Below, in pieces: positions 7,710 through 42,391 of a stretch of 50,458 bases of DNA. The number at the start of each line of letters is the position of its first letter. The first letter of the stretch is position 1. The notes under the pieces were generated by a model. It ran no database searches. It worked only from the letters and a program-made list of their open reading frames with translations, and had not been told where the DNA came from. The position numbers and the translations under genes are program-made. The stretch is from Saprospirales bacterium (GTDB lineage Bacteria; Bacteroidota; Bacteroidia; Chitinophagales; Saprospiraceae): NCBI GenBank assembly GCA_007693915.1, contig RECS01000130.1:1-50458 (forward strand), read 5' to 3'.

Positions 7710-10046
7710 ATGAGAAAATTCATATTCTTAACTTTATTTCACACTGTGATTCTTTCAGGGCTTATTGGGCAGAATACGTTTACTATAAGCGGATATGTGA
7801 CAGAAGCTGAAACAGGGGAAAGTATTCTTGGTGCCAATATAACCATAGCTGAGCAGCCAGGAGTGGGAACGATTACAAATACGTATGGTTTTTATTCAAT
7901 TAGATTGCCGGAAGGTGATTTTGAGCTTGTCTTTTCTTACATTGGAATGGAGGACAAGAGGGTTTCTATAAATATTTCTGAAAACAAAAGCTTAAATATT
8001 GAAATGTCACAAGGCATCCTTTTCGATGAGATAGTTATAACAGCAGAAGAAGAGGACAGAAATTTGAGTCGTACAACTATGGGAGTACTGGAGTTAAATA
8101 TGGAGCAAATCAGCACTTTACCCGTTATTCTTGGAGAACAGGATATTCTCAAAACCATTCAACTGTTACCCGGTGTATTGTCTTCAGGTGAAGGTTTTTC
8201 AGGTTTTCACGTAAGGGGTGGGGGAGCAGACCAAAATTTGGTACTTCTCGACGAAGCAATTGTTTACAACAGCGGGCATCTATTTGGCTTCATTTCTGTA
8301 TTCAATTCCGATGCGATTAGAAATACCACCTTAATTAAAGGAGGGATGCCACCGCAGTACGGTGGTAGGATTTCCTCGGTGCTCGACATTCAGATGAAAG
8401 ATGGAAACAACCGACATTTTCAGGCAGAAGGGGGTATTGGTTTGATATCGAGTAGGTTGACGCTTCAGGGCCCCATAGTTAAAGAACAAAGCTCATGGCT
8501 GGTTTCCGGTCGAAGGACTTATTTGTTTGATCTTGCACAGCCCGCTCTAGAAGGGGGTAATTTTGAAGGAACTAATTATTATTTTTACGATTTTAATGCC
8601 AAGGTAAATCACCGTTTTTCAGATCGAGACAGAATCTTTTTTAGTGCGTACTTTGGGAGGGATATTTTTGATTTTGTAACTGCAAATAGAGGGTTTCGTT
8701 TTACCATGCCATACGGAAATGCAACAGCTACACTAAGATGGAACAGAACTTTTGGAGGGAATATGTTTATGAATACTTCTCTTATTTATAATGACTACAA
8801 CTTTGATTTCAAGGGTAATCAGGAAGATTTTCAATTCAGATTATCTTCGGGTATTAGGGATTGGAATCTAAAATCTGATCTCGATTATTTCATGGATGCT
8901 AACAACCACATTAAGGTGGGATACAGTATTTCGCATCACAAATTATCTCCCAATCAAGCATCAGGGGCAAGCGGTGAAACTGTGTTCGACAGTCCGCAAA
9001 GTCCTGAATATGCTATTCAGGGTGGCTTGTATTTTCAAAATGACTTCAAGTTATCGTCTTCTGTTCAGGTTCTTGCGGGGCTTAGATACTCCTTTTTTAG
9101 CCATATAGGACCTTATCCCGGAGGAGATGGTGAAGAGGATTATGACAGGGGAGATCCTTCAGTTTGGTATGATCAATTCGAACCACGAATTAGCCTTAAT
9201 TGGAGACTTTCAACCAACTCGGCTATCAAGGCAGGATATGCAAGAACTGCCCAATACCTGCACTTAGTTAGTAATAGTACGAGTACGCTGCCAACGGATA
9301 TCTGGGTTCCAAGTAGTTTGAGGGTTCCACCGCAAACAGGAAATCAATATTCAATCGGATATTTCAGGAACTTTTTGGATAATACCTATGAAGTTTCAGT
9401 GGAAGCTTACTACAGGGATCTCAGTAACCAATTGGATTATAGGGAAACTTTTACCCCATCACTTTCTGCGAGATTAGAAAATGAGTTTGTATCAGGTTCA
9501 GGTGAAGCTTATGGTTTAGAGCTTTTTATCAACAAGAAAAAAGGAGATCTAACAGGTTGGATAGCCTATACTTTATCATGGGCTGATCGAAGGTTTGAAG
9601 AAATAAATAATGGTAAAACCTTCGCTGCTCCCTACGACAGGAGGCACGATTTGGCAATTGTTGCAACTTACAGTCTAAACGAAAGGATTGATCTAGGTGC
9701 GTCTTTTGTTTTCGGCTCCGGGCAAAATTATACCCCTATTGAGGGACTTTATTTGGTCAATGGTTTTCCTGCAGAAATTTATGGTGAGCGCAACAGTGCA
9801 AGACTTCCTGCTTATCACAGATTGGATTTGTCCCTTGTCCTCAATCCAAGACCATCTGCAAAAGAGAGGCGATTTAGCAGTTACTGGTCATTTAGCGTAT
9901 ATAACGTTTACAGTAGGAAGAACCCATTGTTTATTTTTCCTTCTTTTGAAGAAAATAGTAGTACAGGGACCATAAAATCAGAAGCATTTCAAGTATCACT
10001 TTTTCCAATTATACCCTCAATTAGTTGGAATTTTAAATTCAAGTAA
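7710..10046 (+). CDS. TonB-dependent receptor with CarboxypepD_reg-like domain
   Basis: This is an outer-membrane active-transport receptor driven by TonB. It has a signal peptide (about 1-20), a carboxypeptidase-regulatory-like beta domain (about 24-110, ISGYVTEAETGESILGANI), a plug (about 120-240, with LLPGVLSSGEGFSGFHVRGG and GGMPPQYGGRISSVLD) and a C-terminal barrel ending in an aromatic terminal strand (SWNFKF). At 778 residues it is shorter than SusC receptors and no susD follows, so it is not a classical Sus pair. The next gene, 5 bp on, is a DUF4249 lipoprotein. That pairing is recurrent in Bacteroidota and suggests the two act together. The ligand is unknown. ATG start, preceded by a purine-rich AGAGAG stretch. 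Confidence 0.92.
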   Translation: MRKFIFLTLFHTVILSGLIGQNTFTISGYVTEAETGESILGANITIAEQPGVGTITNTYGFYSIRLPEGDFELVFSYIGMEDKRVSINISENKSLNIEMSQGILFDEIVITAEEEDRNLSRTTMGVLELNMEQISTLPVILGEQDILKTIQLLPGVLSSGEGFSGFHVRGGGADQNLVLLDEAIVYNSGHLFGFISVFNSDAIRNTTLIKGGMPPQYGGRISSVLDIQMKDGNNRHFQAEGGIGLISSRLTLQGPIVKEQSSWLVSGRRTYLFDLAQPALEGGNFEGTNYYFYDFNAKVNHRFSDRDRIFFSAYFGRDIFDFVTANRGFRFTMPYGNATATLRWNRTFGGNMFMNTSLIYNDYNFDFKGNQEDFQFRLSSGIRDWNLKSDLDYFMDANNHIKVGYSISHHKLSPNQASGASGETVFDSPQSPEYAIQGGLYFQNDFKLSSSVQVLAGLRYSFFSHIGPYPGGDGEEDYDRGDPSVWYDQFEPRISLNWRLSTNSAIKAGYARTAQYLHLVSNSTSTLPTDIWVPSSLRVPPQTGNQYSIGYFRNFLDNTYEVSVEAYYRDLSNQLDYRETFTPSLSARLENEFVSGSGEAYGLELFINKKKGDLTGWIAYTLSWADRRFEEINNGKTFAAPYDRRHDLAIVATYSLNERIDLGASFVFGSGQNYTPIEGLYLVNGFPAEIYGERNSARLPAYHRLDLSLVLNPRPSAKERRFSSYWSFSVYNVYSRKNPLFIFPSFEENSSTGTIKSEAFQVSLFPIIPSISWNFKFK

Positions 10047-18403: not shown

Positions 18404-20635
18404 TTATTGTTTTAAAGTGGATTCAATAGATTTTTTATAAATATCTTTATACGTTTTTATGTCCCCAAAATCCTGTTCATCAATTTTAATTTTGCCGGAG
18501 CTAACAGTCCCTAAAACATGGTATTTTATTAATTTATTGTCTAAAGTTTCAAGAACAGATTCCAATAAATGACCGGCTACTGAAACCACCGCTCTAGACT
18601 GACTTTCTCCAAATAAAAAAGCATCTTTTCTAATTAGAGAATCTGAAGAAATTTTAAAACCCATATTGCCCGGGATTCCCGACTCAACTAATGTACAGAA
18701 TAAACCACCTTCAGATACATCGTGTGCAGATTGAAGTAATCTTTTGTTTATTAAGGAGCTTAATACATCGTGGAGTAGACTCTCCGTTTCCAATTCAAAA
18801 TGAGGACACGGACTATTTTTGATGCCCTTAATGTGTTGAAGGTATTCCGAGCAACCAATATCGTTTCTACTTTCCCCAAGTAAGATTATGGTATCGCCCT
18901 CCTCTTTAAAATCTAAAGTCATGATTTTAGAAGGGTCATCAATTAAACCTATCATACCAATTGTTGGTGTCGGTTGTACGGGTTCAGTTTTATTTTTAAA
19001 TACAGATTGATTGTAAAAACTGACATTGCCACCTGTAACAGGTGTGCCGAAGTGGTTGCAAGCATTTCCCATTCCCTTGATGGCATAAACAAACTGATAA
19101 TAAACCTCGGGGTTATAGGGATTTCCGAAGTTCAGACAATTGGTAATTGCCAAAGGCTTAGCACCTGTGCAAACCAGGTTTCTTGCCGCCTCACTAACCG
19201 CAATCATACCACCCTTAAATGGATCCGCATATACATAAGATGAGTTACAATCAGAGGTCGCTGCTATGGATTTATTCGTTCCTTTTATTCGGATTATTGC
19301 AGAATCACAATTCCTGTTTGTTGTTAATGTATTGGTCCGTACCGTTGAATCATATTGTTCAAAAATCCACCGTTTTGAAGCTATGGTTGGTAAACTTACT
19401 AATCGCTTAGCTGTCTCAACCAGGTTCTCAGGTATTTCTATATCCTCTATTTTAAAATCCTCTATTTTTTTAAAATAAGTAGGTGTAGTGTACTCCCGAT
19501 CATAGACTGGAGCTCCTCCTCCGAGAACTAAAGAATCTGCAGGTACATGTGCTACCAATTCTCCGTTCATAAAATATTCCAACATGCCAGTATCAGTGAC
19601 CTCACCTATTTGTACGCATTCTAGATCCCATTTTTTATAGACCTTTAGTAATTCTTTTTCTTTCCCTTTTTGAGCTATTATTAGCATTCTTTCCTGACTC
19701 TCTGATAATAGAATTTCGAAGGGTTTCATATTGCTTTGTCTGAGTGGCACTTTATCCAGATATATAATCATCCCCGTTTTACTTTTGGCTGCCATTTCAG
19801 ATGTAGAGCAAGTGATTCCGGCTGCTCCCATATCCTGCATACCCAATACTGCACCTGTTTGTAGTACTTCCAGACTTGCCTCCAATAAGAGTTTCTCCTG
19901 AAAAGGGTCACCCACCTGAACAGATGGCAAGTCTTCCGCAGAATCTTCAGTTAGGTCAGCTGATGCAAAAGTAGCACCGTGAATACCATCTTTACCGGTT
20001 GCTGAACCAACAATAAATACCGGGTTGCCGGGACCAGGAGCAACTGCTGATGCAGTTTCCCCATGCTTTACAATTCCAATGGACATAGCGTTGACCAAAA
20101 TATTTTGCTGATAAGAGGGATGAAAATAAACCTCACCCCCTATAGTGGGCACACCTAGGCAGTTTCCGTAATCTCCTATTCCACTAACCACACCCTTGAG
20201 CAAATGCTTGGTCCTTGGGGTATCTAGTGTTCCAAATCGCAATGAATTCAAAGCAGCTATAGGACGTGCACCCATGGTGAAAATATCTCTGTGGATTCCC
20301 CCGACTCCTGTTGCAGCCCCCTGATAAGGTTCTATTGCTGAAGGGTGATTGTGCGATTCCATTTTGAAAGCACAAGCAAGCCCATCGCCAATGTCGACTA
20401 GACCTGCGTTTTCTTCACCGGCTTCCACCAGTAGACTACCTCCTTTTCTGGGTAGAGTTTTGATCCATTTGATGGAATTTTTATAAGAACAGTGTTCTGA
20501 CCACATGACTGAATAAACACTCAGTTCTGTGAAATTGGGTTTTCTTCCTAAATAATCAACAATTTTGTCGTATTCTTCAGGTAGTATTCCCAATTTTTCT
20601 GCTACGGATAAGTCTGGTATTAATTCACTGCTCAT
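18404..20635 (-). CDS. purL: Phosphoribosylformylglycinamidine synthase II (small PurL)
   Basis: PurL is the ATP-dependent FGAM synthetase of purine biosynthesis. At 743 residues it is the small form, which lacks a glutaminase domain and works with separate PurQ and PurS; neither is in the window. Visible signatures are [12 protein letters not shown] near the N-terminus, [26 protein letters not shown] (quoted in part as [14 protein letters not shown]), [11 protein letters not shown] and the second-half repeat [19 protein letters not shown] (read as [11 protein letters not shown]). ATG start. A -7-like box (TATCTTTG, minus strand) lies 34 bp upstream. A TlpA-like gene follows at 6 bp. Confidence 0.97.
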
Positions 20636-20668
20636 GAGTTTATTTTCTATTTTTATATAATGGGTGCA

Positions 20669-20676
20669 AAGATAAA
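20669..20676 (-). promoter_or_regulatory. -7 box upstream of purL
   Basis: On the minus strand this reads TATCTTTG, an exact match to the Bacteroidota -7 consensus TAnnTTTG, about 34 bp upstream of the purL ATG. The implied untranslated leader is about 25 nt. No clear -33 TTG is seen at the usual distance. I see no purine riboswitch in the leader. Confidence 0.35.
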
Positions 20677-20838
20677 AAAAGATGTTCTAGGATGGTATTG
20701 AGTTTGGAAAGTTTATAATTGAAGTTCACGGACGTGCTAATCTACTCAATAGAATGGAGATAAAGATTAGATAAAAAAAAATGATCTTAAAATTTAAACT
20801 TAGCTTTATTAAAAATTAACATTGGGATAATATTTGAT

Positions 20839-20846
20839 TACCTTTG
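20839..20846 (+). promoter_or_regulatory. -7 box upstream of the HlyD-like/VTC operon
   Basis: TACCTTTG matches TAnnTTTG and lies about 70 bp before the HlyD-like start. The nearest TTG upstream (20822) is only 14 bp away, shorter than the usual spacing, so the call rests on the -7 element alone. Confidence 0.35.
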
Positions 20847-20860
20847 TCATTTAGTAATTC

Positions 20861-20923
20861 ATGAAAGTCACTACAGGCTGTAAATACTCAAGTACCGCTA
20901 AACTTGCTAAAGTAAAATGTTGA
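20861..20923 (+). CDS. Possible 20-residue leader ORF
   Basis: An ATG at 20861, about 8 nt after the transcription start implied by the TACCTTTG box, opens a 20-codon frame (MKVTTGCKYSSTAKLAKVKC). Its stop overlaps the start of the HlyD-like gene in the sequence ATGTTGA. That geometry allows translational coupling. The peptide has three or more Lys and two Cys but no attenuator-like codon run. It may simply be chance. Confidence 0.25.
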   Translation: MKVTTGCKYSSTAKLAKVKC

Positions 20924-21990
20924 AAAGGAAAAAGTACACCTTTATTTTAATGTTTTTTGTCATCGCCATGTTTGCCGCTTCTTTTTTGCCGGTTGATGTT
21001 CCTTATTCCATTACAACTCGTGCGATTGTGCAACCTAGTCAAAGTTGGGAGTTAACTAGACTGCCTGATGGTAGTTTGTCTTCATTAGTTAGAAATGAAC
21101 TCAGCGGTTCTATTGAATCCTATGGTGTTACTGAATTCAGACGGGGGGACGTAGTTAGTTTTCAAATCAATCAGGATCTATTTACTAAAAAATATATCAA
21201 TGCCGGTGATACGGTTGGATTTCTATACAGTAATGATGAACAAATGCGATTGGCCGAGTTAAAAGGTGAGGTGGAAGTGATTGAAGCAGAGATAAATTAT
21301 TACCTTGCCGGCGAGAAAGAAACCTATTTGCAATCTGTCAGAAAGGAAATCAATCTTGCTCAGGAGGCATTAAATAAAGCTGAAATTGTTTACCAGCGTT
21401 CACGGCGCATGATGACCGATACTTTGGTTTCTATTGAAGAATATGAACTGGATCGGCATGAACTTGAAGCAAGAAAAATAGCTCTTGAACTTGCTAAATC
21501 TAGGTTAAATGTTGCCCTTTCTGGAGATAAACCCGAAAGAATTCTTTGGTTAGAAACTAGAAAAAAGGCCCTTTCTTCACAGATTGCCCAGCTTATAAAC
21601 AGAATGGAGAAGTTGACAATGTTGTCTCCAATGGATGGGAAAATTGTTCTTGATCGAAATTATATCTCAAGGGATGTTCTTTTAAGAGTTGTTGATACTA
21701 CGAGCTTTGTTGGAATTGCTCCTGTTCTGATCAGAGATTTAAAGTACTTAGAAATTGGAAGTAAAGTTGAATTGAGATCTTCTTCTAATGGTCAGAGACT
21801 TTTGGGAGAAGTGATGGACTTTAATAATGTAGCTGAAATACTTAACGGAGAGGTTGTCGTTTATCTGACGTTTTTGATGAAAAATGAAGATATAGATATT
21901 ATTCCCGGAAGTATGATTGAGGTAGATATTACCGGTGTGCCACTGAATCCACAACAGTTTGCAGCAAGATTAATGCGATCACCAATTTAA
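20917..21990 (+). CDS. HlyD-like membrane-fusion protein
   Basis: This is an inner-membrane-anchored periplasmic adaptor of the HlyD/biotinyl-lipoyl type. It has one transmembrane helix near residues 8-24, an N-terminal beta half, a long helical hairpin/coiled coil (about 110-225, rich in Glu, Lys and Leu; EEYELDRHELEARKIALELA), a lipoyl-type return strand (MLSPMDGKIVLDRNYIS) and a C-terminal beta barrel. The usual adaptors work with an ABC, RND or MFS exporter and an outer-membrane factor, and none of these is adjacent. Instead it is followed after 4 bp by a VTC-type polymerase and then by a DUF4956 membrane protein. Its role may be to organise that module in the envelope (inference). Confidence 0.8.
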   Translation: MLKRKKYTFILMFFVIAMFAASFLPVDVPYSITTRAIVQPSQSWELTRLPDGSLSSLVRNELSGSIESYGVTEFRRGDVVSFQINQDLFTKKYINAGDTVGFLYSNDEQMRLAELKGEVEVIEAEINYYLAGEKETYLQSVRKEINLAQEALNKAEIVYQRSRRMMTDTLVSIEEYELDRHELEARKIALELAKSRLNVALSGDKPERILWLETRKKALSSQIAQLINRMEKLTMLSPMDGKIVLDRNYISRDVLLRVVDTTSFVGIAPVLIRDLKYLEIGSKVELRSSSNGQRLLGEVMDFNNVAEILNGEVVVYLTFLMKNEDIDIIPGSMIEVDITGVPLNPQQFAARLMRSPI

Positions 21991-21994
21991 TTTC

Positions 21995-22720
21995 ATGAAG
22001 TTAAGGTACGAAAGAAAATATCTTGTTCCCAATAATAGGCTAAATGAGCTGAGAAATGCAATAAAGCCCTTCGTTAGACCTGATATTTATGCCGGGACAA
22101 CCGATAATCATCCGCAATATACCGTGAGAAGTATTTATTTTGACAGCGCTCACAGACATGCTGTTTTTGAAAAAATAGAAGGTTTGCGTGACAGGAAAAA
22201 GCTTAGGATACGTGGCTACGATAAATTAAAAGAGGACAGTTTGGTCTTTACTGAAATAAAAAGGAAAATATCAAACCGAATTTGTAAAAACAGGGCTCCC
22301 TTTTTATATAAAAACATCGCTAATGTTCTGGAGACTGGAAATTATGAACCCTTTCTCCTCAAAAATACTCAACAAACGCGTGACGATGCGGCAAGATTTC
22401 TCTACAATCAAAAACGATTTCATATGGAACCGGTAAATTTGATTGTTTATAACAGGGAACCTTATCATGGAAAATTTTGCTCCGATACCAGAATTACCTT
22501 TGACAAGGATATCCGGTCAAGAATTTATCCTCAGATTCATGAACTGTACGACGATGTTGATTTTGTTTATCCCTGGGCTGGACATTTTATTATGGAAATA
22601 AAATATTATGATGCTCCTATGCCTTCATGGGCAAAGTCAATAGTGTGGGAATTTGATTTAAAAGCGGAGGCCTTATCAAAATACGTAGAAGGGGTTCTTT
22701 GCCACCCACTTGTTTATTAA
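21995..22720 (+). CDS. VTC-domain polyphosphate polymerase-like protein
   Basis: This is a member of the CYTH/TTM-like VTC domain family; the yeast Vtc4 catalytic domain makes polyphosphate from ATP. The tunnel signature is visible: RYERKYLVP at the N-terminus, YTVRSIYFDS, LRIRGYD, EIKRKI (the characteristic ExKxK-like strand), NLIVYNREPY and, near the end, HFIMEIKYYDAPMP with the late acidic metal-binding strand. At 241 residues it is a bare catalytic domain with no SPX domain and no membrane helices. The neighbouring DUF4956 protein probably supplies the membrane part. Whether it truly makes polyphosphate is not shown by sequence. Confidence 0.88.
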   Translation: MKLRYERKYLVPNNRLNELRNAIKPFVRPDIYAGTTDNHPQYTVRSIYFDSAHRHAVFEKIEGLRDRKKLRIRGYDKLKEDSLVFTEIKRKISNRICKNRAPFLYKNIANVLETGNYEPFLLKNTQQTRDDAARFLYNQKRFHMEPVNLIVYNREPYHGKFCSDTRITFDKDIRSRIYPQIHELYDDVDFVYPWAGHFIMEIKYYDAPMPSWAKSIVWEFDLKAEALSKYVEGVLCHPLVY

Positions 22721-22737
22721 TGATGCAAATAATATAG

Positions 22738-23412
22738 ATGCAGGAACAACTTGACACAATATTTATTTTTCGAATAACACCCGCTGAAGCTTTGACTAAT
22801 CTTGCTGTGGCTTTAGTATGTGGGGTATTGATCAGTTTATTCTATCGAGCTACCTATAAAGGGGTCAGCTATTCCTCTCATTATGTCATTTCTGTAATTA
22901 TGCTGGCGATGATAACTGCATTGGTGATAATGGTCATTGGAAACAATCTGGCACGGGCGTTTGGATTGGTAGGTGCTATGTCTATCATTCGCTTTAGAAC
23001 AGCCGTAAAGGATACGCAGGATATTATGTACATTTTCTTTTCCCTTGCAGCTGGTCTTGCTTGTGGTGCCGGAATGTATGCTATAGCCATAACTAGTACA
23101 CTATTTATTGGTTTCTCGTTGATGATAGCAACTGCTGTTTATGCTGAAAATCCAGCCAAAAGAGAGTATTTGCTTCAAATAGTTCATTTAGGCACCAAAC
23201 CACAAAAAGGTATATTTGAACCCATCCTTGATAAATATCTGTCCAAATACAATTTAGTCAATGTAAAAACCCTTAGGGATGACAGAGGTGAAATAATGGA
23301 GTTTTCCTATTATGTGATGTTAAAGAGTGAAAAAATGTCCTCCCGCCTTTTGTCTGATCTGAAGGATCTTGAAATGGTCGATAAGGTAAACCTCTTCTTT
23401 GATGAGGAATAG
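22738..23412 (+). CDS. DUF4956 membrane protein
   Basis: This is an integral membrane protein with about four helices in residues 15-135 (LTNLAVALVCGVLISLFY, VISVIMLAMITALVIMVI, FFSLAAGLACGAGMYAIA and the next). It contains the family block FGLVGAMSIIRFRTAVKDTQD in the first loop (quoted in part as GAMSIIRFRTAVKD). The soluble C-terminal domain (about 140-224) is ferredoxin-like in pattern. DUF4956 genes commonly sit beside VTC-domain genes, as here (17 bp gap). It may form the membrane channel or anchor for the product of the polymerase; that is inference. A MgtC-like fold is an alternative description of the membrane half. Confidence 0.85.
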   Translation: MQEQLDTIFIFRITPAEALTNLAVALVCGVLISLFYRATYKGVSYSSHYVISVIMLAMITALVIMVIGNNLARAFGLVGAMSIIRFRTAVKDTQDIMYIFFSLAAGLACGAGMYAIAITSTLFIGFSLMIATAVYAENPAKREYLLQIVHLGTKPQKGIFEPILDKYLSKYNLVNVKTLRDDRGEIMEFSYYVMLKSEKMSSRLLSDLKDLEMVDKVNLFFDEE

Positions 23413-23508: not shown

Positions 23509-24180
23509 CTATTTTTTAGCATTTAACTGTACGCTAATGTTTTTGGCGACTTTACTAGATAGCGTTTGTTTATTCCCATTTCTGGTTTTAATCATGAGGG
23601 TGTTGTCAAAGTCAAACTTTTTCATCACACTTAATTCTTTACCCAATACCAGACCGATATCCTCCAGAAAAAGTAAAAACTCAGTATCTGTATTTCTTAC
23701 GCCAACGATTACGCCCCACTCATTTAAACCGAGATTGGAAAGTGGTAGTTGATTCCTTACAGTAATGACACCTCGCCTATCTGGGATGGGGTCTCCATGG
23801 GGATCGAATTTAGGAAAGCCCAAATGTTCCTCTAATCGATCTACCAATTCTTCCGACTGAATATGCTCCAATTGTTCAGCTAAGTCGTGAACTTCTTCCC
23901 AACCGAAATTTAATTTTTCAAGAAGAAAGACTTCCCATATTCTATGTTTTCTGACTAATTGAGTTGCACTTTCAAGACCCAAACTAGTAAGGTTAACCCC
24001 TTTGTATTTTTCATAGCGGATCAAATTTTTCTCCGCCAGTCTTTTGAGCATGTCTGTAACAGAAGCAGCACTAGTTTCTACAATTTCAGAAATTTCCTTG
24101 GTAGATACAGTTCCTTTTCGCTTTTCAGATATTTTGAAAATGGCTTTAAGGTAATTTTCTTCGGCAGTGCTGAGTAACAT
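23509..24180 (-). CDS. DtxR/MntR-family metal-dependent repressor
   Basis: This is an iron- or manganese-sensing transcription factor. The N-terminal winged helix-turn-helix reads EENYLKAIFKISEKRKGTVS (residues about 7-26), followed by VETSAASVTDMLKRLAEKNL as recognition helix region. The metal-binding/dimerisation domain holds the expected ligands in RKHRIWEVFL, EVHDLAEQLEHI and DPHGDPIP. A C-terminal SH3-like FeoA domain (about 145-223) makes it longer than MntR. It follows yajC after 23 bp on the same strand, and its regulated genes are not evident here. The choice between Mn and Fe cannot be made confidently. Confidence 0.93.
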   Translation of the reverse strand: MLLSTAEENYLKAIFKISEKRKGTVSTKEISEIVETSAASVTDMLKRLAEKNLIRYEKYKGVNLTSLGLESATQLVRKHRIWEVFLLEKLNFGWEEVHDLAEQLEHIQSEELVDRLEEHLGFPKFDPHGDPIPDRRGVITVRNQLPLSNLGLNEWGVIVGVRNTDTEFLLFLEDIGLVLGKELSVMKKFDFDNTLMIKTRNGNKQTLSSKVAKNISVQLNAKK

Positions 24181-29395: not shown

Positions 29396-30349
29396 TTATT
29401 GCTTTAAAAACAGTACATTGTCAGAACTGACTTGTTTGTCATTTAAATGCGCAGCTATTGAACCACTTATCTTTTCAGGCATTCCTGAGGATTTAATTTG
29501 ATAAGGAAAATATCCTTGTTTTTGAAGCTGATCCGCTGCTGTTTTATGACTTTTATTACCTCTTTCATCAGATAAATACTCCATCACAATACAGGGACTG
29601 TATTTTAATAAATAGGGTGCCAAACCCCTGATCACACTATCCTCTGCACCTTCCACATCAATTTTGATAATTTTTGCTTTGCATTCTTTCTCAAAGAGGA
29701 ATTCACTGAGATTTACTATGCTAATTTTTTCAATTGTAGCCTTTCCTTTTTTGTACCATTTTTCTCCTTCAAATTGTTCCGGCCGGAAAGTATTATATTC
29801 TGAATATAAGTTTGAAAAAATATAAAAATCCAAAGTGCCCTTTACTTCTCCTGTTGCCATATTGTAAAATTCTGTATTAGAAAGTCCTCTGAGATTCTTT
29901 TCTAAAACCTTAAATGTCGAAGGAGTCGGCTCAAATGAAATTATTTTTCCCTTCTCATTGACAAGAGAGGATGCAAGTAGTGAAAAATAGCCATAATGTG
30001 CACCAACATCAATAAAAACATCACCATCATTAAGGTTTTGGATTAAGTAGCTTGCAAGTGCAACTTCAGAGAAATGACCCTTTCCCCCAAGTAAGTATAT
30101 ATCTGTTCCTGCAGGTAGTGCTAAATTCATTTTAGATCCAAAAAAGGTATTGGTATTTATTGAAAAGGGCAGGTTGATTATTGGAAATAAAATCATCCTC
30201 CAGAAAATGGCAAAACAATATTTAAAAGGATGCTTAATTAATCTTCTGAATTTAGAGGTTTTTGCTAACTCATCAAGTTGCTGCAATTCTTGCAGTAAAT
30301 GGGCTTTGTCATTATTTTGCTCAATATTGAATGGGGTTGTAGAGTTCAT
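29396..30349 (-). CDS. FkbM-family methyltransferase
   Basis: This is a SAM-dependent methyltransferase of the FkbM type, usually O-methylating sugars or small molecules. The SAM site is DGDVFIDVGAHYGYFSLLAS, followed by ISFEPTPSTFKVL and the KIDVEGAEDSVIRGL block. The N-terminal 75 residues include a hydrophobic segment (FAIFWRMILFPIINLPFS) that could associate with the membrane. It begins 6 bp after the kynurenine monooxygenase stop on the same strand and is likely the last gene of that operon. No known kynurenine step needs a methyl transfer of this type, so either it acts on a side product or the arrangement is incidental. No glycan genes are adjacent. Confidence 0.88.
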   Translation of the reverse strand: MNSTTPFNIEQNNDKAHLLQELQQLDELAKTSKFRRLIKHPFKYCFAIFWRMILFPIINLPFSINTNTFFGSKMNLALPAGTDIYLLGGKGHFSEVALASYLIQNLNDGDVFIDVGAHYGYFSLLASSLVNEKGKIISFEPTPSTFKVLEKNLRGLSNTEFYNMATGEVKGTLDFYIFSNLYSEYNTFRPEQFEGEKWYKKGKATIEKISIVNLSEFLFEKECKAKIIKIDVEGAEDSVIRGLAPYLLKYSPCIVMEYLSDERGNKSHKTAADQLQKQGYFPYQIKSSGMPEKISGSIAAHLNDKQVSSDNVLFLKQ

Positions 30350-30355
30350 TGAAAA

Positions 30356-31732
30356 CTAAATTGAAATTTCGAGTTTAGTCCTTAGATCCATTAACTCCTG
30401 TAAAATTTTCAATTCGTCTATTTGGTCTGCAGACCCTTTTTCTTTTATTTTTTGTAATAGCAATTCGTCTTGCGCTCTTCCCAATTTTAAAGCTGCAGAG
30501 TAGGGCAGATCCTCTTTGAAGGTAACGAGAGAATATTTTGAGTAGTAATCCTGATATTTGTTTTCCAGTTTCATTTCAAGTTTTCTTTTTTCTGCAAAAA
30601 CCGGGTCATCAACTTTGTCGCGCATCTCAATAAAATTATCCAATGCGAGATCTGCGATAGCATCAGCGTCTTTTTTACGGATAATCTGAAAAGCCTCGAA
30701 TATATTTCCCCAGTCACCGAATTCAAAGTTTTTCATCACTTTATCCAGAACCACTACATCCTCAAAAGCACAATTCATTCCCTGTCCGTAAAATGGAACT
30801 ATGGCGTGAGCTGCATCTCCAATCAGGAGAGTCTTAGCACCTGTTTTCCAGGGATAACATCGTATAGTACCAAGACTAGAGGTCGGATTGGTGCGATATT
30901 CTTCTAATAGCTTTGGCATATGTGGCATTGCATCAGGAAACCATTTTTGAAAATATCGGGTAATATCGGCATCCGTCCTGATGTTATCAAATCCATCTTC
31001 TCCTGTATAAGGTAGAAAAAGGGTTATAGTAAATGTCTTATCCAAATTGGGCAGACCAATCATCATAAAGGTCTTTCTAGGCCATATGTGCAAGGCATCG
31101 GAAGCTATTCTAAAGTCATGGTTTTCAGAAGCCGGAATAGATAGTTCCTTATAGCCATGGGTTAAGTACTGCTGACTGAAATTAAATCTAAGCAAACTGC
31201 TTTTTTTCATGGCAGCCTGCCTGATGACACTGCCCGCTCCATCAGCTCCAAAAACTGCATCGGCTTTGAAGTTTTGAATATTTTTACTATGGTCCTGAAA
31301 CTTTAGTTCACCGCTGTCTGGATCACTACTGATGCAACTCATATTAAAATGTATGGGAATTCCCTCAGCTTCTGCTGCATCGTACAAAATGGAATTCAGG
31401 TCACCTCTCGATATGGAATTGATGTAGTCATTCGGTCTTCCGCTATATGGCGACATTCTTAAATTGCCCTCCCTGTCGTGAAGTAATCTGCCTTTCATCG
31501 GTAGGGTTATGGTTCTTGCTTTTTCGGATAAGCCAACGAGGTCTAATGCCTTTAAGCCTCTATTAGAAAGTGCAAGATTGATAGATCTGCCGGCACTAAT
31601 ATCGGCGGAACGCATATCCGGTCTTTTTTCAAATAAGACAGGTTTATATCCCAGCTGCTTTAAACGCAATGCCAAAAGACTACCACAAAGTCCGGCACCT
31701 ACCACTGCTACATTTTTTCCTTTATTACTCAT
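30356..31732 (-). CDS. kmo: Kynurenine 3-monooxygenase
   Basis: This FAD- and NADPH-dependent aromatic hydroxylase converts kynurenine to 3-hydroxykynurenine. The dinucleotide motif is VAVVGAGLCGSLLALRL, followed by AGRSINLALSNRGLKAL, a KMO signature, and the second FAD motif LLIGDAAHAIVPFYGQGMNC. A C-terminal helical tail after residue about 390 fits the KMO family. Two ATGs are possible. I prefer 31732, where the start overlaps the kynureninase stop as ATGAGTAA; 31741 would add three residues. The overlap indicates translational coupling with kynU. Confidence 0.94.
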   Translation of the reverse strand: MSNKGKNVAVVGAGLCGSLLALRLKQLGYKPVLFEKRPDMRSADISAGRSINLALSNRGLKALDLVGLSEKARTITLPMKGRLLHDREGNLRMSPYSGRPNDYINSISRGDLNSILYDAAEAEGIPIHFNMSCISSDPDSGELKFQDHSKNIQNFKADAVFGADGAGSVIRQAAMKKSSLLRFNFSQQYLTHGYKELSIPASENHDFRIASDALHIWPRKTFMMIGLPNLDKTFTITLFLPYTGEDGFDNIRTDADITRYFQKWFPDAMPHMPKLLEEYRTNPTSSLGTIRCYPWKTGAKTLLIGDAAHAIVPFYGQGMNCAFEDVVVLDKVMKNFEFGDWGNIFEAFQIIRKKDADAIADLALDNFIEMRDKVDDPVFAEKRKLEMKLENKYQDYYSKYSLVTFKEDLPYSAALKLGRAQDELLLQKIKEKGSADQIDELKILQELMDLRTKLEISI

Positions 31733-32990
31733 GAATAGCATTTTTTAAAATCTCAGAAAACCGATAAATATCTTCAAAAGTATTGTAGAGGGGTACAGGA
31801 GCAATTCTGATAACATCCGGCTCCCTCCAATCTGCAATGACCCCGGCTGAAGATATTTTTTCAAACAATTTTTTATCCGCATTGATCACGCGAACTGAAA
31901 TTTGACAACCTCTATCCTCTTCTTTTGTCGGAGTGATCAATTCTATTTTATTTCCGGGAATCTCTTTTAGTAGTTTTTCGCATAAGTTGCTAAGTGCGAT
32001 ACTCTTTTTCCTCAACTGATCCATACCCGCACGGTCAAAAAGATCGAGAGAAGCCTGCATGCAAGCCATCGGTAGAATAGGTGGATTACTCAATTGCCAA
32101 CCTTCGGCTCCTGGAATGGGAACAAAGTCTGGACCCATTTTAAACCGGGTCTCTTTATCGTGACCCCACCATCCTGCAAAACGCGGAAGATCAAGGCTAT
32201 TAGCATGACGGTCATGAATAAATACACCGGACAAGGCTCCCGGACCTGAATTTAAATACTTGTAAGAACACCAGGCTGCAAAATCAACCCCCCAATCGTG
32301 TAGGTCTAGTGGAACATTGCCGGCAGCATGTGCCAGGTCGAAACCAGCAATAATGTCGTATTGATGCGCCCATTTGGTGATTTGTCTCATGTCGTAAAAT
32401 TGCCCGCTGTAATAGTTTACACCACCGATAAGCGTCATGGCAATTTCATGTCCATATTTTTCAAAAGTGTCCTTTATGGTTTTTCTGCTTACTATATCTG
32501 TACCCTCATCTGGTTGCAATTCGATTATCCCTTCATTGGGATCGTATCCGTGAAACCTCAACTGAGATTCCAAGGCATAGCGGTCACTGGGAAATGGATT
32601 GTATTCGATTAAAATTTTAAATTTATCGGGTTTGGGTCGGTAAAAACTAACCATGAGTAAATGGAGATTTACCGTCAGTGAATTCATTACTACCACTTCT
32701 TTTTCACGAGCGCCAACTAATTTCGCAGTTTTTTCTGTTAAAAATTCGTGATATGGCATCCAGGGATATCTCCCATGCATATGACCTTCAACTCCCATCT
32801 TTGCCCATTTTTCCATCTCCAACTGCACGTATTCATAGGCTTTTTTTGGTTGTAAACCTAGGGAGTTGCCGCAAAGATAGATACAAGGTTTTCCATTGAA
32901 TTCTTCCGGAAGGTTGAACTCATTTCTAAAATGTCTCAAAGAATCATTTTGATCGATGTGGAGGATCTCAGTCGGAATATTTTGACTCAT
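31725..32990 (-). CDS. kynU: Kynureninase
   Basis: This PLP enzyme cleaves kynurenine or 3-hydroxykynurenine to anthranilate or 3-hydroxyanthranilate plus alanine. The fold-type I signatures are clear: IYLCGNSLGLQPKKAYEYV near residue 35, GFDLAHAAGNVPLDLHDW, and the PLP-Lys segment AAWCSYKYLNSGPGALSG. EGWQLSNPPILPMACMQASL follows (read in part as GWQLSNPPIL). At 421 residues it is complete. The gene heads the kynU-kmo-fkbM run, 208 bp after the ACMS decarboxylase gene, so it may have its own promoter. Confidence 0.96.
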   Translation of the reverse strand: MSQNIPTEILHIDQNDSLRHFRNEFNLPEEFNGKPCIYLCGNSLGLQPKKAYEYVQLEMEKWAKMGVEGHMHGRYPWMPYHEFLTEKTAKLVGAREKEVVVMNSLTVNLHLLMVSFYRPKPDKFKILIEYNPFPSDRYALESQLRFHGYDPNEGIIELQPDEGTDIVSRKTIKDTFEKYGHEIAMTLIGGVNYYSGQFYDMRQITKWAHQYDIIAGFDLAHAAGNVPLDLHDWGVDFAAWCSYKYLNSGPGALSGVFIHDRHANSLDLPRFAGWWGHDKETRFKMGPDFVPIPGAEGWQLSNPPILPMACMQASLDLFDRAGMDQLRKKSIALSNLCEKLLKEIPGNKIELITPTKEEDRGCQISVRVINADKKLFEKISSAGVIADWREPDVIRIAPVPLYNTFEDIYRFSEILKNAIHE

Positions 32991-33070
32991 GGTAGTGATT
33001 TATTTTAAATAGACACCTGTGAAGATTGAAAAATTTGGGCAAGTATGAAAATTTTATTTCTTAGTTTATC

Positions 33071-33122
33071 TAACCATAGACAAGACACAGGCACCAAGAA
33101 TACGCAAAGTTACGTAAAGAAA
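33071..33122 (-). repeat. Degenerate 10-nt-period CTTTGCGT-type intergenic element
   Basis: Read on the minus strand, the spacer upstream of kynU contains successive related units: TTCTTTACGT, AACTTTGCGT, ATTCTTGGTG, then a looser CCTGTGTCTTG. The units share CTTnGnGT with a period near 10 nt. I recall similar CTTTGCGT strings recurring in intergenic DNA of unrelated bacteria, but cannot search for other copies. The unit AACTTTGCGT also contains TAACTTTG, which looks like a -7 box, so promoter and repeat cannot be separated here. Confidence 0.45.
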
Positions 33123-33198
33123 ATATTGTTTTTTTAAATTGCTTTATAATCATCAACATTCGGTTTGTTTCTGTAGAAAGTAAAACACATGTTAATAT

Positions 33199-34233
33199 CT
33201 ACATGAAGTCATTCTTAGAAAGGCTCAACCAATCCAATGCAGTTCCACTTAATAATTGTTCTTTAATATTAGCCTCATAGGGCATACTTTCGATTAATTT
33301 TCCGGGTTCCAGTTCGCCAAGAGGGAAAGGATAATCTGTCCCTAATGCTATACGATCTGCCCCAACAAGTCCTACGATGTAATCTAGCATTTTCGGATCG
33401 TGAACCAGTGAATCCAAGTAAAACTTGCCAAGGTATTCTCTCGGATTTTTGTCATTGTCAATTGCACAGAGATCAGGACGGACATTAAAGCCGTGTTCTA
33501 TTCTGCCGATAGTAGCGGGAAAGGAGCCTCCCCCGTGTGCAAAAGCTACCTTTAGGTTGGGCAATCGCTCAAAAACTCCTCCGAAGATCATAGAGCAGAT
33601 AGCAAGCGAACTCTCCGCAGGCATGCCTACCAGCCAGGGAAGCCAGTACTTTTCCATTTTACTTTTACCCATCATATCCCAAGGATGGACAAAAATGGCT
33701 GCATTTAAATGTTCAGCTGCCTCAAAAAAGGGAAATAAAGCGGGATCGGAAAGATTCCAATCGTTAATATGTGACCCTATTTCTATTCCTCTCAAACCCA
33801 AATCATTTATACATCTTTCCATTTCTATTATCGCCAAATCCGGATTCTGTAAGGGTACAGTACCCAATCCGATGAAGCGCTTAGGATACCTTTCAACTAT
33901 GTCAGCTATATGGTCATTTAAGAACCTGGACACCTCCAATGCATCTTTTGCTTTCGCCCAGTAACTAAATAAAACAGGGATAGTAGATAAAACCTGAACA
34001 TCTACATGATGTTCTTTACAATCTTTCAATCGAGCATCTGCATCCCAGCAATTATCCATTACCTCTCTGAAGAACTTGTCATCCTGCATCATGCGCGCAC
34101 AACAGGGTTTATGGTGATCCAGATGTATAAAACCTCCATATCCAAATTTCTCTGCCCAGCGTGGCATGTGGCCAGGCATTATATGTGTATGAATATCAAT
34201 TTTAAGTATTTCCTTTCCTTCCAGTTGAATCAT
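33199..34233 (-). CDS. 2-Amino-3-carboxymuconate-6-semialdehyde decarboxylase (ACMSD)
   Basis: This zinc-dependent amidohydrolase-fold decarboxylase removes CO2 from ACMS, the ring-opened product of 3-hydroxyanthranilate, steering flux away from quinolinate and NAD. It is strikingly close to animal ACMSD in pattern: KIDIHTHIMP (the HxH zinc ligands), KFGYGGFIHLDHH, NCWDADARL, STIPVLFSYWAKAKD, FVHPWDMMG, FAHGGGSFP and LGTDYPFPLGELEPGKLIES (catalytic and metal-binding His/Asp). Its length of 344 residues matches. It starts 2 bp after tryptophan dioxygenase, confirming a kynurenine operon. Confidence 0.96.
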   Translation of the reverse strand: MIQLEGKEILKIDIHTHIMPGHMPRWAEKFGYGGFIHLDHHKPCCARMMQDDKFFREVMDNCWDADARLKDCKEHHVDVQVLSTIPVLFSYWAKAKDALEVSRFLNDHIADIVERYPKRFIGLGTVPLQNPDLAIIEMERCINDLGLRGIEIGSHINDWNLSDPALFPFFEAAEHLNAAIFVHPWDMMGKSKMEKYWLPWLVGMPAESSLAICSMIFGGVFERLPNLKVAFAHGGGSFPATIGRIEHGFNVRPDLCAIDNDKNPREYLGKFYLDSLVHDPKMLDYIVGLVGADRIALGTDYPFPLGELEPGKLIESMPYEANIKEQLLSGTALDWLSLSKNDFM

Positions 34234-34235
34234 CC

Positions 34236-35336
34236 TTATGTGTTTTTTTCAGTAAAATAAAATCCGAGTTCTTTTCTTACTTCTTCCGGTAATTCAGGTA
34301 ATTTTGATCGTGGGATCAAAAGTGTAGAAATGTTGTGAAGGTCTATAAAAATCTTATGATCATCGGCTGTCTTTTTGAGGTACTTATGACCTGACGAGCC
34401 ACCTGTGCCTGTCTTTCTGCCCAACATTCGCATTACCATTTGAGCATGTCTGAATCTCCAGCTTGTCAATAAATCTTCAATTTCCAGCAATCTTGAAATG
34501 AACAGATAGGGCATTTGCAGAATAGGTTCATCTCTGTAAAGATTAATCAGTAAGGCTGCCATAGTCGCTTTATAACTTAGAGTAAGTTCACCTTTTTCTA
34601 TAAGTTCATTGTGTTTATCTTTATCTAAGACGGTCGAAAAGTAGCTATCGGTGTCGCCCAACATTTGTAATCGCATTTCTTTTTCATTTTCGGTCAGTAT
34701 TTTTGACTGCGAAATGGCACCGGACTCCTCGTCTAGCATATTCTTTACGGCTTTTCTATATTCTGATAAAAAATTGAAGTTTTTAAAATTTAGAAAGGGA
34801 GTTCTTTCCAACCATGCTTCCAGTAAATCAAGCATAGATGGGGATTTTTCAAGCATCTCTAATTGTGATTTACGGTCTCCTTTGAATGCTTCAGTATATC
34901 GAGTCTCATTGTAAGTAACTCTTTTCTTTTCTTTTAGACCGAGCATTACTTCAACTACTCTGAATTGATGGGATTGAAATCCCGATGCCGGGAAAAGGTA
35001 ATTTCTGAAATCAAGAAAGTCCAGAGAAGTCATGGTTTCAAGTACATTGATTTGCTGTATCAGCACTTTTTGAATCTCAATTACCCGCTCCAATCTTGCT
35101 ACTGCAACCCTTATGCTACGCTCATCTACATTGTCTGAGTGAAACATTTCCATTACTGATCTTAAGTCATGGATAATTTCCTTAAACCACAATTCATAGA
35201 CCTGATGTATGATAATAAAAAGCATCTCATCATGGGCTTCATTTCCGTCGATTTTGCTTCTTAGGTTTTGTGCATTTAGAATTTGATCTAATTCGAGATA
35301 GTTGTGGTAATGAATACTTGCATATTTTTCGCTCAT
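34236..35336 (-). CDS. kynA: Tryptophan 2,3-dioxygenase
   Basis: This haem enzyme opens the indole ring of tryptophan to N-formylkynurenine. It contains IHYHNYLELDQIL, the helix DEMLFIIIHQVYELWFKEI with the substrate-contacting residues, the haem-ligand His in SWRFRHAQMVMRMLG and the GTGGSSGHKYLKK loop that contacts tryptophan carboxylate and ammonium. At 366 residues it is longer than many bacterial TDOs (about 280) and closer to the animal type. It lies 15 bp after an NPP-type gene and 2 bp before ACMSD. Confidence 0.96.
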   Translation of the reverse strand: MSEKYASIHYHNYLELDQILNAQNLRSKIDGNEAHDEMLFIIIHQVYELWFKEIIHDLRSVMEMFHSDNVDERSIRVAVARLERVIEIQKVLIQQINVLETMTSLDFLDFRNYLFPASGFQSHQFRVVEVMLGLKEKKRVTYNETRYTEAFKGDRKSQLEMLEKSPSMLDLLEAWLERTPFLNFKNFNFLSEYRKAVKNMLDEESGAISQSKILTENEKEMRLQMLGDTDSYFSTVLDKDKHNELIEKGELTLSYKATMAALLINLYRDEPILQMPYLFISRLLEIEDLLTSWRFRHAQMVMRMLGRKTGTGGSSGHKYLKKTADDHKIFIDLHNISTLLIPRSKLPELPEEVRKELGFYFTEKNT

Positions 35337-39867: not shown

Positions 39868-41103
39868 ATGAAGATTCTTCAACTCTGCAAAAAGTTTCCA
39901 CTTCCGCTCAAAGATGGTGAATCTATAGCTGTTACTTATCTCAGTCGAGCCCTGCATGAATTAGGGTGTGAGGTGACGTTACTAGCTATGAATACCTCGA
40001 AACACTATATTGATCTTGATAAAGTCAAAAGTCTGGCAAAGCACTATAAAGCAGTTTATACAGTAGATATTGACAATGCATTAAATCCTGTCGATGCCTT
40101 CAAAAACCTTTTTTCTAAAGATTCGTATCACATTTCAAGATTCAGATCAGATGAGTTTTCTCAGAAGCTTGAGAAGTTGTTAAAGGAGGAGAATTATGAT
40201 ATAGTGCAATTAGAAACTCTTTACCTGGCTCCATATATGGAAACTATCCGCAAGCATTCAAATGCCTTAGTCGCTATGAGGTCTCATAATATTGAGCATG
40301 AAATATGGGATCGGATTACACAAAATACACAATTTTTGCCTAAAAAATGGTATATACAATACCTCTCGAAAAAGCTTAAGAGTTTTGAACTGGGTGTTTT
40401 GAATGATTACGATTTTTTGATTCCTATATCACAGAGAGACTTAGAAAAATTTAGAAACTTAGGATATGTCAACGGAGCACAAACTATACCTATAGGAATT
40501 GACTTTAGAGAGTACAAACCCAATATGGCCTCTTTTCGAAAAAATCCAAGTGTTAGCTTTATCGGTTCTTTGGATTGGATACCCAATTACGAGGGTATTA
40601 ATTGGTTTCTAAATGAAGTTTGGCCTGAGGTACATAAAAATATCCCTGATTTGGAATTGCACATAGCCGGAAGAAATACTCCGGATGATTTATTCCGTTG
40701 GTCAAAATCTAAAGTTTTAATTCACGGCGAGGTTCGTGATGCAAGAGAGTTCATTAATCAGCATCCCATGATGATTGTTCCCCTTTTATCAGGTTCAGGG
40801 ATGCGAGCTAAAATCCTTGAGGGTATGGCATTGGGTAAAGTGGTGATTACAACAACACTCGGATTGGAAGGCATTTTTGCTGAAGATGGGAGGGAAGTTC
40901 TCGTAGCAGATACCCCGGAAGAATTTCTTGAAAAATTCAATTATTGTCTGGATAATCCCAGAGAAATGATCAGAATTTCAAAAGCAGCAAAGCGATTTGT
41001 TTCTGAAAATTTTGACAATTTTGATCTTGCTAAAAATCTTATCAGTTCCTATCAATCCTATATGAAAAAACATGGGTTTAAGATCAGTGAAGAAATTTCT
41101 TAA
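39868..41103 (+). CDS. GT4-like glycosyltransferase
   Basis: This is a GT-B fold sugar transferase. The N-terminal acceptor half starts ILQLCKKFPLPLKDGESIA and contains RSHNIEHEIWDRI. The C-terminal donor half has VSFIGSLDWIPNYEGINWFL, LHIAGRN and the GT4 signature RAKILEGMALGKVVITTTLG, where the first Glu of the E-x7-E motif is replaced in spacing by GSGMRAKILEG. It has no transmembrane segment and 411 residues. It is followed after 11 bp by a second glycosyltransferase of the same type, so the two probably act successively on one glycan, of unknown identity. Confidence 0.88.
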   Translation: MKILQLCKKFPLPLKDGESIAVTYLSRALHELGCEVTLLAMNTSKHYIDLDKVKSLAKHYKAVYTVDIDNALNPVDAFKNLFSKDSYHISRFRSDEFSQKLEKLLKEENYDIVQLETLYLAPYMETIRKHSNALVAMRSHNIEHEIWDRITQNTQFLPKKWYIQYLSKKLKSFELGVLNDYDFLIPISQRDLEKFRNLGYVNGAQTIPIGIDFREYKPNMASFRKNPSVSFIGSLDWIPNYEGINWFLNEVWPEVHKNIPDLELHIAGRNTPDDLFRWSKSKVLIHGEVRDAREFINQHPMMIVPLLSGSGMRAKILEGMALGKVVITTTLGLEGIFAEDGREVLVADTPEEFLEKFNYCLDNPREMIRISKAAKRFVSENFDNFDLAKNLISSYQSYMKKHGFKISEEIS

Positions 41104-41114
41104 TTAATTTTGAA

Positions 41115-42323: not shown

Positions 42324-42391
42324 GGTGATCTTTTTAAAAATAATAATGTTAAACATATCGGTCTTTTTTGATTGATAAAAATTTAAATTTA

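Follow-up and report, generated by a model that had tools for sequence, protein, structure and literature searches.

Within a 50,458-nucleotide stretch of DNA from a Saprospirales bacterium (contig RECS01000130.1; hereafter the window), three adjacent genes encode a HlyD-like adaptor, a VTC-domain protein and a DUF4956 membrane protein (Table 1). The three open reading frames (ORFs) lie on one strand with gaps of 4 and 17 bp, as the original prediction, made from the sequence alone, had noted. We found that the genes belong to a conserved module and that this module is akin to TolC-type export, and both conclusions are well supported. The source genome (3.43 Mb in 197 contigs, 98.5 % complete) carries a single copy each of VTC and DUF4956, and the named genomes nearest to it are metagenome-assembled ones from Saprospiraceae or Saprospirales, with a VTC identity of 79-95 %.

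Table 1. Features of the adaptor-VTC-DUF4956 operon, by position in the window.
Feature	Position	Strand	Basis
Intergenic region 5' of the operon, containing TACCTTTG (20839-20846)	20636-20916	+	sequence
HlyD-like adaptor (membrane fusion protein, N-terminal helix, long alpha-hairpin)	20917-21990	+	ORF, 357 aa
TolC-docking RLS-type motif R161-x3-M165-x6-S172, predicted hairpin tip	21397-21432	+	motif, model
VTC-domain protein (triphosphate-tunnel polymerase type)	21995-22720	+	ORF, 241 aa; Pfam VTC
DUF4956 membrane protein	22738-23412	+	ORF, 224 aa; Pfam DUF4956
Invariant Arg-Phe-Arg stretch (R85, R87) of DUF4956, between model helices 3 and 4	22990-22998	+	alignment

The VTC protein matches its Pfam family (PF09359) with an E value of 1.4e-34 and 120.1 bits against a cut-off of 23. 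This is the only Pfam domain in the protein; no SPX and no Vtc membrane domain was found. As a single sequence it gave no match in the PDB, and a profile of 23 VTC proteins retrieved the Vtc4 structures first (E 3.7e-21). In the alignment, K8, R71, R73, E87, K89, K98, R154, R166 and D170 of the window protein correspond to K200, R264, R266, E279, K281, K294, R361, R373 and D377 of Vtc4, and all seven Vtc4 tunnel residues (K200, R264, R266, K281, K294, R361 and R373) are kept. The Vtc4 numbering presumes a shift of 3, which agrees with R264/R266, and K200, K281, K294, R361 and R373 are residues that we take to have a tunnel role. That of R264 and R266 comes from the yeast work, where the available part of the text gives R264A/R266A/E426N as the combination used to impair Vtc4 (PMC9911596). 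E201, K203 and K229 are invariant in the 23 sequences and fit Vtc4 E426, K428 and K458 by motif only, the alignment having stopped earlier. The genome also holds a PPK1-type gene (PP_kinase E 1.5e-50), which rules out the VTC protein as its sole polyphosphate synthase and makes it dispensable for ordinary intracellular polyphosphate.

The DUF4956 protein matches its own Pfam family (PF16316) with an E value of 8.4e-17 and 61.8 bits against a cut-off of 30.6. It also matches MgtC models under their cut-offs (Pfam PF02308, E 6.7e-4, 20.4 against 31.4 bits; NCBIfam, E 4.6e-5), and it is distant kin of MgtC. A DUF4956 profile retrieved one ribosomal protein from the PDB (E 0.59), which we took as chance. 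The structural model is of low confidence (predicted local distance difference test, pLDDT, 57.8) and has five membrane helices followed by an ACT-like C-terminal domain, which superimposes on ACT-like folds with a best Z of 10.1 and a root-mean-square deviation (rmsd) of 2.1 over 78 residues. Compared with viral structures, the same low-confidence model gave a single match under E 0.001, at template-modelling (TM) scores of 0.23-0.28. The two arginines of the Arg-Phe-Arg stretch are present in all 114 distinct DUF4956 sequences. Their placement relative to the membrane comes from a model region with pLDDT below 50; if the five-helix topology is right, R85 and R87 would face the cytosol and could suit an entrance for an acidic chain.

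The adaptor scores 17 bits with Pfam HlyD_3, for which 22.2 are needed, and we therefore call it HlyD-like by its fold and do not assign it to that family. NCBIfam adaptor models were matched by all nine alignment rows (the window and eight relatives); the best match of the adaptor itself has an E value of 7.6e-11 and 41.7 bits, far under that model's cut-off of 393. A sequence profile retrieved only EmrA from the PDB (E 0.023). The AlphaFold2 model (pLDDT 77.7, pTM 0.52) has MacA (Foldseek E 1.3e-15) and EmrA (E 2.1e-14) as its top structural matches, and by model and matches alike it has the HlyD-type architecture of a membrane anchor, lipoyl/barrel domains and an alpha-hairpin. Structural alignment gave a VIA Z of 13.7, with an rmsd of 13.8 over 242 residues of MacA and 12.8 over 299 of EmrA; these whole-chain values are high because the domains are placed differently. 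The sequence RxxxLxxxxxxS is given as the TolC-docking motif of MacA, AcrA and HlyD in the available part of PMC3391258, and a motif of this type sits at the predicted hairpin tip of the window adaptor. Among 48 distinct sequences of its subfamily, the arginine is kept in 47, the second position is leucine in 38 and methionine in 9, and the third is serine in 38 and threonine in 1. The strict motif occurs in 33 of the 48, against 2.4 expected by shuffling. TolC docking is thus a well-supported prediction for this subfamily.

The surroundings of these genes were surveyed in 150 Saprospiraceae and 395 Bacteroidota genomes. By profile at E <= 1e-20, the window's adaptor subfamily occurs in 18 of the 150 family genomes, and all 18 carry VTC, compared with 63 of the other 132. 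The adjacency of adaptor and VTC is not chance, since 15 of these 18 genomes have the two within 250 bp. Among the 395 Bacteroidota, VTC was found in 57 genomes, DUF4956 in 88 and CotH in 135, and DUF4956 is present in every one of the 57 VTC genomes (the p values for these co-occurrences ignore kinship).

Gene order was read at 94 DUF4956 loci, 96 having been fetched and two (L184 and L185) having no DUF4956 ORF by profile. Genes were placed in the same run if the gaps were below 250 bp and they lay within three genes, and the VTC fragment G022:C160 was left out. The neighbourhood profiles were built from these loci, and the counts of CotH, DUF2490 and OEP are lower bounds. VTC shares a run with DUF4956 at 63 loci. 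Of these, 41 have an adaptor (HlyD, HlyD2 or HlyD3), 15 have a DUF2490 gene, none has both, and seven have neither (L044, L048, L049, L052, L062, L065 and L075). A DUF4956-DUF2490 pair is also on record for B. thetaiotaomicron (PMC10434189, in the part available). The 31 loci without VTC in the run include 20 with an adaptor, 17 of which have the order DUF4956-HlyD3-OEP2. Ten have neither VTC nor a recognised partner (L119-L122, L125, L126, L138 and L174-L176), and L127 reads DUF4956-Porin_O_P-CotH; L155 is counted as having no VTC, its VTC being 371 bp away. We rejected the idea that the adaptor is a bystander: three adaptor subfamilies sit with DUF4956, and in the family sample that of the window was found in VTC genomes only.

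The tree comprises 77 VTC proteins from ORFs longer than 200 aa and shorter than 330 aa, with partners labelled by a 1.2 kb neighbour rule, and contains an HlyD2-linked clade with support 100/99. A second clade, with support 100/99, unites the DUF2490-linked proteins with five loci labelled partnerless, and the HlyD-linked proteins fall to the same side of a branch whose support is just 52/0. One locus labelled as having no partner, L043, has a DUF2490 gene in its run by the same-run rule. The tree indicates that partner type follows VTC lineage, with a few losses. VTC and DUF4956 also occur together in six plasmid records from Bacillota and Actinomycetota, in which the neighbourhood profiles found no adaptor. 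The absence fits an adaptor that serves a second membrane, and six records are few.

No ABC, RND, MFS or OEP gene was found in the window by Pfam on the triple and 20 further ORFs (19 of them at least 200 aa), with one ORF (29396-30349) and most of the genes between 14 and 30 kb judged by eye only. With no ABC, RND or MFS pump gene seen, we do not class the module as a classical tripartite efflux or type I secretion system. A profile search gave zero OEP matches on the window contig, and six OEP loci lie elsewhere in the source genome. The original prediction had called it odd that the adaptor lacks a partner; this holds for the window but not for the module at large, given the docking motif and the TolC-family genes found in the same run at four other loci. 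These are L011 (OEP E 2.5e-42; order HlyD-VTC-DUF4956-OEP, with a DUF4956 ORF of only 171 aa), L124 (E 1.1e-34), L070 (E 4.3e-17; order CotH-DUF4956-HlyD3-TolC-VTC-lamin tail protein) and the Hymenobacter plasmid L111 (annotated TolC; order HlyD-DUF4956-TolC). OEP2 has no Pfam match (L128, L123) and resembles TolC in a profile comparison of a single pair (probability 88, E 3.4e-6).

CotH is a further companion. It is present in 55 of the 57 VTC genomes, compared with 80 of the 338 others, and in 23 of the 31 genomes that have DUF4956 but no VTC; it lies in the run itself at 18 of the 94 DUF4956 loci. Among the plasmid records it was seen in the stretches of L112 and L114 (by annotation) and of L115 and L118 (by Pfam), and not in those of L113 and L117. 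The source genome has three CotH genes, two of which (L147, L148) encode large proteins that, by eye, start with a secretion-signal-like stretch and resemble lamin-tail proteins. The original prediction had treated the three genes as one module, had noted that VTC and DUF4956 often co-occur, and had proposed a neighbourhood survey; the adjacency in 15 of 18 genomes, the 41 of 63 loci with an adaptor and the 57 of 57 VTC genomes with DUF4956 bear this out. It would have been contradicted by an adaptor not conserved in relatives or by a VTC protein without the catalytic tunnel residues, and both the adaptor and the residues are kept. It had missed the DUF4956-adaptor-TolC-like operons without VTC, the DUF2490 alternative and the strong link to CotH.

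We propose that the triple carries out synthesis-coupled export of polyphosphate, or of a phosphoanhydride polymer closely related to it, a reading to which we give about an even chance; the identity of the polymer, the channel role of DUF4956 and the direction of transport are the parts that we infer. Judged by its Vtc4 residues, the VTC protein would be a cytosolic enzyme that builds the phosphate chain from ATP. DUF4956 in the inner membrane would take up the nascent acidic chain, much as the yeast VTC membrane domain may do with its own helices, and the polymer would pass from DUF4956 through the adaptor into a TolC-type duct. One other clade of the VTC tree has a DUF2490 protein where the adaptor would be, and this protein may take over the adaptor's role. 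The product would end at the cell surface, where CotH-type kinases, frequent companions of these genes, could use it.

A number of observations weigh against this proposal. The DUF4956 model is poor and its channel putative, and no energy source other than synthesis was seen. The adaptor occurs without VTC beside it in three family genomes, as an orphan (G404), at a distance of 8.7 kb (G411) and at a contig end (G472). VTC is not always part of the adaptor set either, as shown by other contexts in Saprospiraceae, where we read the adaptor-type loci and twelve further stretches: L191 and L194 have the order DUF4956-CotH-VTC, L200 has a 964 aa gene in the middle, VTC adjoins ribBA in L195 and L196 with no DUF4956 detected in the stretch, and L199 is also without DUF4956. 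In the alphaproteobacterial plasmid L116, DUF4956 was found with neither VTC nor an adaptor. Finally, the 17 DUF4956-HlyD3-OEP2 loci all lie in genomes without VTC by Pfam, and L123 and L124 likewise combine DUF4956 with an adaptor in the absence of VTC; DUF4956 with an adaptor thus needs no VTC product.

The VTC-free loci could mean that DUF4956 is a general inner-membrane transporter, working with the adaptor and a TolC-type duct on a small or macromolecular substrate. In those members of the family that have it, the VTC protein would then regulate or energise the system from the cytosol, perhaps as a tunnel-fold enzyme acting on tripolyphosphate or nucleotides, and would not make the cargo. 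We consider this unlikely. It would agree with the resemblance of OEP2 to TolC, with the relation of DUF4956 to MgtC and with the several activities that the available parts of the literature give for tunnel-fold enzymes of the CYTH superfamily, but it leaves unexplained why every VTC genome has DUF4956 and why the Vtc4 tunnel residues are kept.

Further observations against synthesis-coupled export concern the path across the outer membrane. The window has no gene for an outer-membrane partner, and L070 is the only one of the 41 adaptor-VTC loci in which the same-run rule finds TolC or OEP2. The window's own adaptor copy departs from the strict motif, with M165 in place of the leucine. In HlyD2 the strict motif occurs in 7 of 13 sequences against 1.7 by shuffling, and TolC docking is less well supported for that subfamily; in HlyD3 the 3 of 19 are hardly over the 1.6 expected, and docking is not supported. 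The scarcity of outer-membrane genes would suit a module whose polyphosphate or phosphoryl donor gets no further than the periplasm or membrane and does not cross the outer membrane, the adaptor being a scaffold to keep VTC-DUF4956 close to surface-modification enzymes. This seems to us quite unlikely, given a TolC-docking motif whose R161 is kept in 47 of 48 sequences and given that adaptor and DUF2490 never share a run. Moreover, an OEP gene often lies apart from that of its adaptor, as tolC does in E. coli.

Storage is a usual role of polyphosphate. That the VTC protein merely stores polyphosphate in the cell, with DUF4956 only a membrane anchor and the adaptor drawn from an unrelated efflux function, would parallel the yeast complex, which moves polyphosphate into the vacuole (PMC9911596, in the part available), but is very improbable given the PPK1-type gene, the confinement of the adaptor subfamily to VTC genomes (18 of 18 in the family sample) and the two further adaptor subfamilies that occur with DUF4956.

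Synthesis-coupled export can also be cast more widely. From the 17 VTC-free DUF4956-adaptor-TolC-like loci, DUF4956 may be a general inner-membrane partner. It might form the inner-membrane part of envelope-spanning exporters of a class not yet recognised, joined either to an adaptor and a TolC-type duct or to DUF2490. Where VTC is present, synthesis of the cargo would itself drive export, and the exported polyphosphate would feed extracellular CotH kinases as a source of phosphate and energy outside the cell, where ATP is scarce. We regard this as a long shot, and its CotH-feeding step is at odds with the 17 genomes that carry DUF4956-HlyD3-OEP2 but lack VTC, every one of which has CotH.

Around the operon, the neighbours on both sides are on the opposite strand, a purL-like gene (by eye) at 18404-20635 and a DtxR-like gene (Pfam) at 23509-24180. 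The original prediction set the start of the module at 20839; this is 78 bp 5' of the first ATG of the adaptor, and it coincides with the first base of TACCTTTG. The latter matches what we take to be the Bacteroidota -7 pattern, TAnnTTTG, and is a candidate promoter element by pattern only. In a promoter and terminator scan of both strands, 19 sites looked promoter-like, where shuffles gave 11.1 (sd 3.7); we take none of these sites as evidence. Further along the window, two glycosyltransferase genes are followed by ribBA (39868-43504) in the same order as in L195; there a short VTC gene follows ribBA, and the window stretch has none. A kynurenine-pathway-like run (FAD-binding protein, kynureninase-like protein, amidohydrolase and tryptophan dioxygenase) occupies 30356-35336.

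A secreted or lipoprotein-like gene (by eye) of about 320-440 aa was rejected as a fourth member of the module, being unspecific (102 of the 150 family genomes). In 9 of the 18 genomes it is no more than about 1.5 kb from the adaptor, and it has weak Phytase-like similarity (best E 0.037); it adjoins the adaptor operon or diverges from it in L004, L007, L010, L011, L042, L092 and L188, and the two copies in the source genome are both away from the operon. L081 and L168 have a different gene, SdiA-regulated/Phytase-like, after DUF4956. The DUF4956-HlyD3-OEP2 operons (L128-L137 and L177-L183) are followed by a gene for 238-261 aa, short-chain dehydrogenase-like by eye in L128. In L125 and L126, DUF4956 is followed by a 341 aa protein (no Pfam match in L125) and a 480 aa gene (a metallophosphatase in L125). 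L190 has, at 8926-9861 between CotH-VTC and DUF4956, a CYTH-like protein (Pfam E 6.4e-4, under cut-off) that is a second tunnel-fold candidate.

We found no description of the adaptor-VTC-DUF4956 module in the literature searched, which excluded most subscription papers and all bioRxiv preprints, and in the same literature no described bacterial machine for envelope export of a phosphate polymer. The gonococcal pseudo-capsule is surface polyphosphate, and its authors suggest that other gene products may move the polymer across the outer membrane (PMC10237660, in the part available). A conserved set of synthase, inner-membrane protein, adaptor and TolC would be a concrete gene set for surface polyphosphate, and would give roles to DUF4956 and to bacterial VTC proteins. 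It would also bear on the phosphate donor of CotH kinases outside the cell; for those of the spore coat, the available text of PMC7821199 treats the origin of the ATP as an unanswered question.

Among known systems, the yeast VTC complex makes the polymer and, coupled to this, moves it through a basic channel (PMC9911596, in the part available). The window module shares with the eukaryotic complex (Vtc4 with Vtc1/Vtc3) the tunnel-fold polymerase domain and the same tunnel residues and, by our proposal, the coupling of synthesis with passage across a membrane, but its protein is a VTC domain only, its membrane partner DUF4956 is of a different family, and adaptor and outer-membrane parts are added. 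The hosts of the Gram-positive Pel and NELoc-2 loci have one membrane. CotH, polyphosphate polymerase and DUF4956 adjoin the Gram-positive Pel genes (PMC7112168), and C. perfringens NELoc-2 has VTC or polyphosphate polymerase genes with CotH (PMC2879425, PMC11677781), each as far as the available text goes; in that of PMC2879425, a 222-226 aa protein named as a tubulin/FtsZ GTPase follows each VTC gene, and DUF4956 is not named. In the parts of these sources available, the loci resemble the window module in VTC and DUF4956 with CotH adjacent, and differ in that no adaptor is named. The adaptors MacA and EmrA of TolC-dependent tripartite pumps share with the window adaptor the membrane fusion architecture, the hairpin and the RLS-type motif, but identity in the structural matches is 12-15 % and no ABC, MFS or RND pump gene was seen at the window locus. 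Like the MgtC/SapB family, DUF4956 matches MgtC models and ends in an ACT-like domain; unlike it, DUF4956 stays under the MgtC cut-offs, carries the invariant Arg-Phe-Arg stretch and sits with VTC or adaptors.

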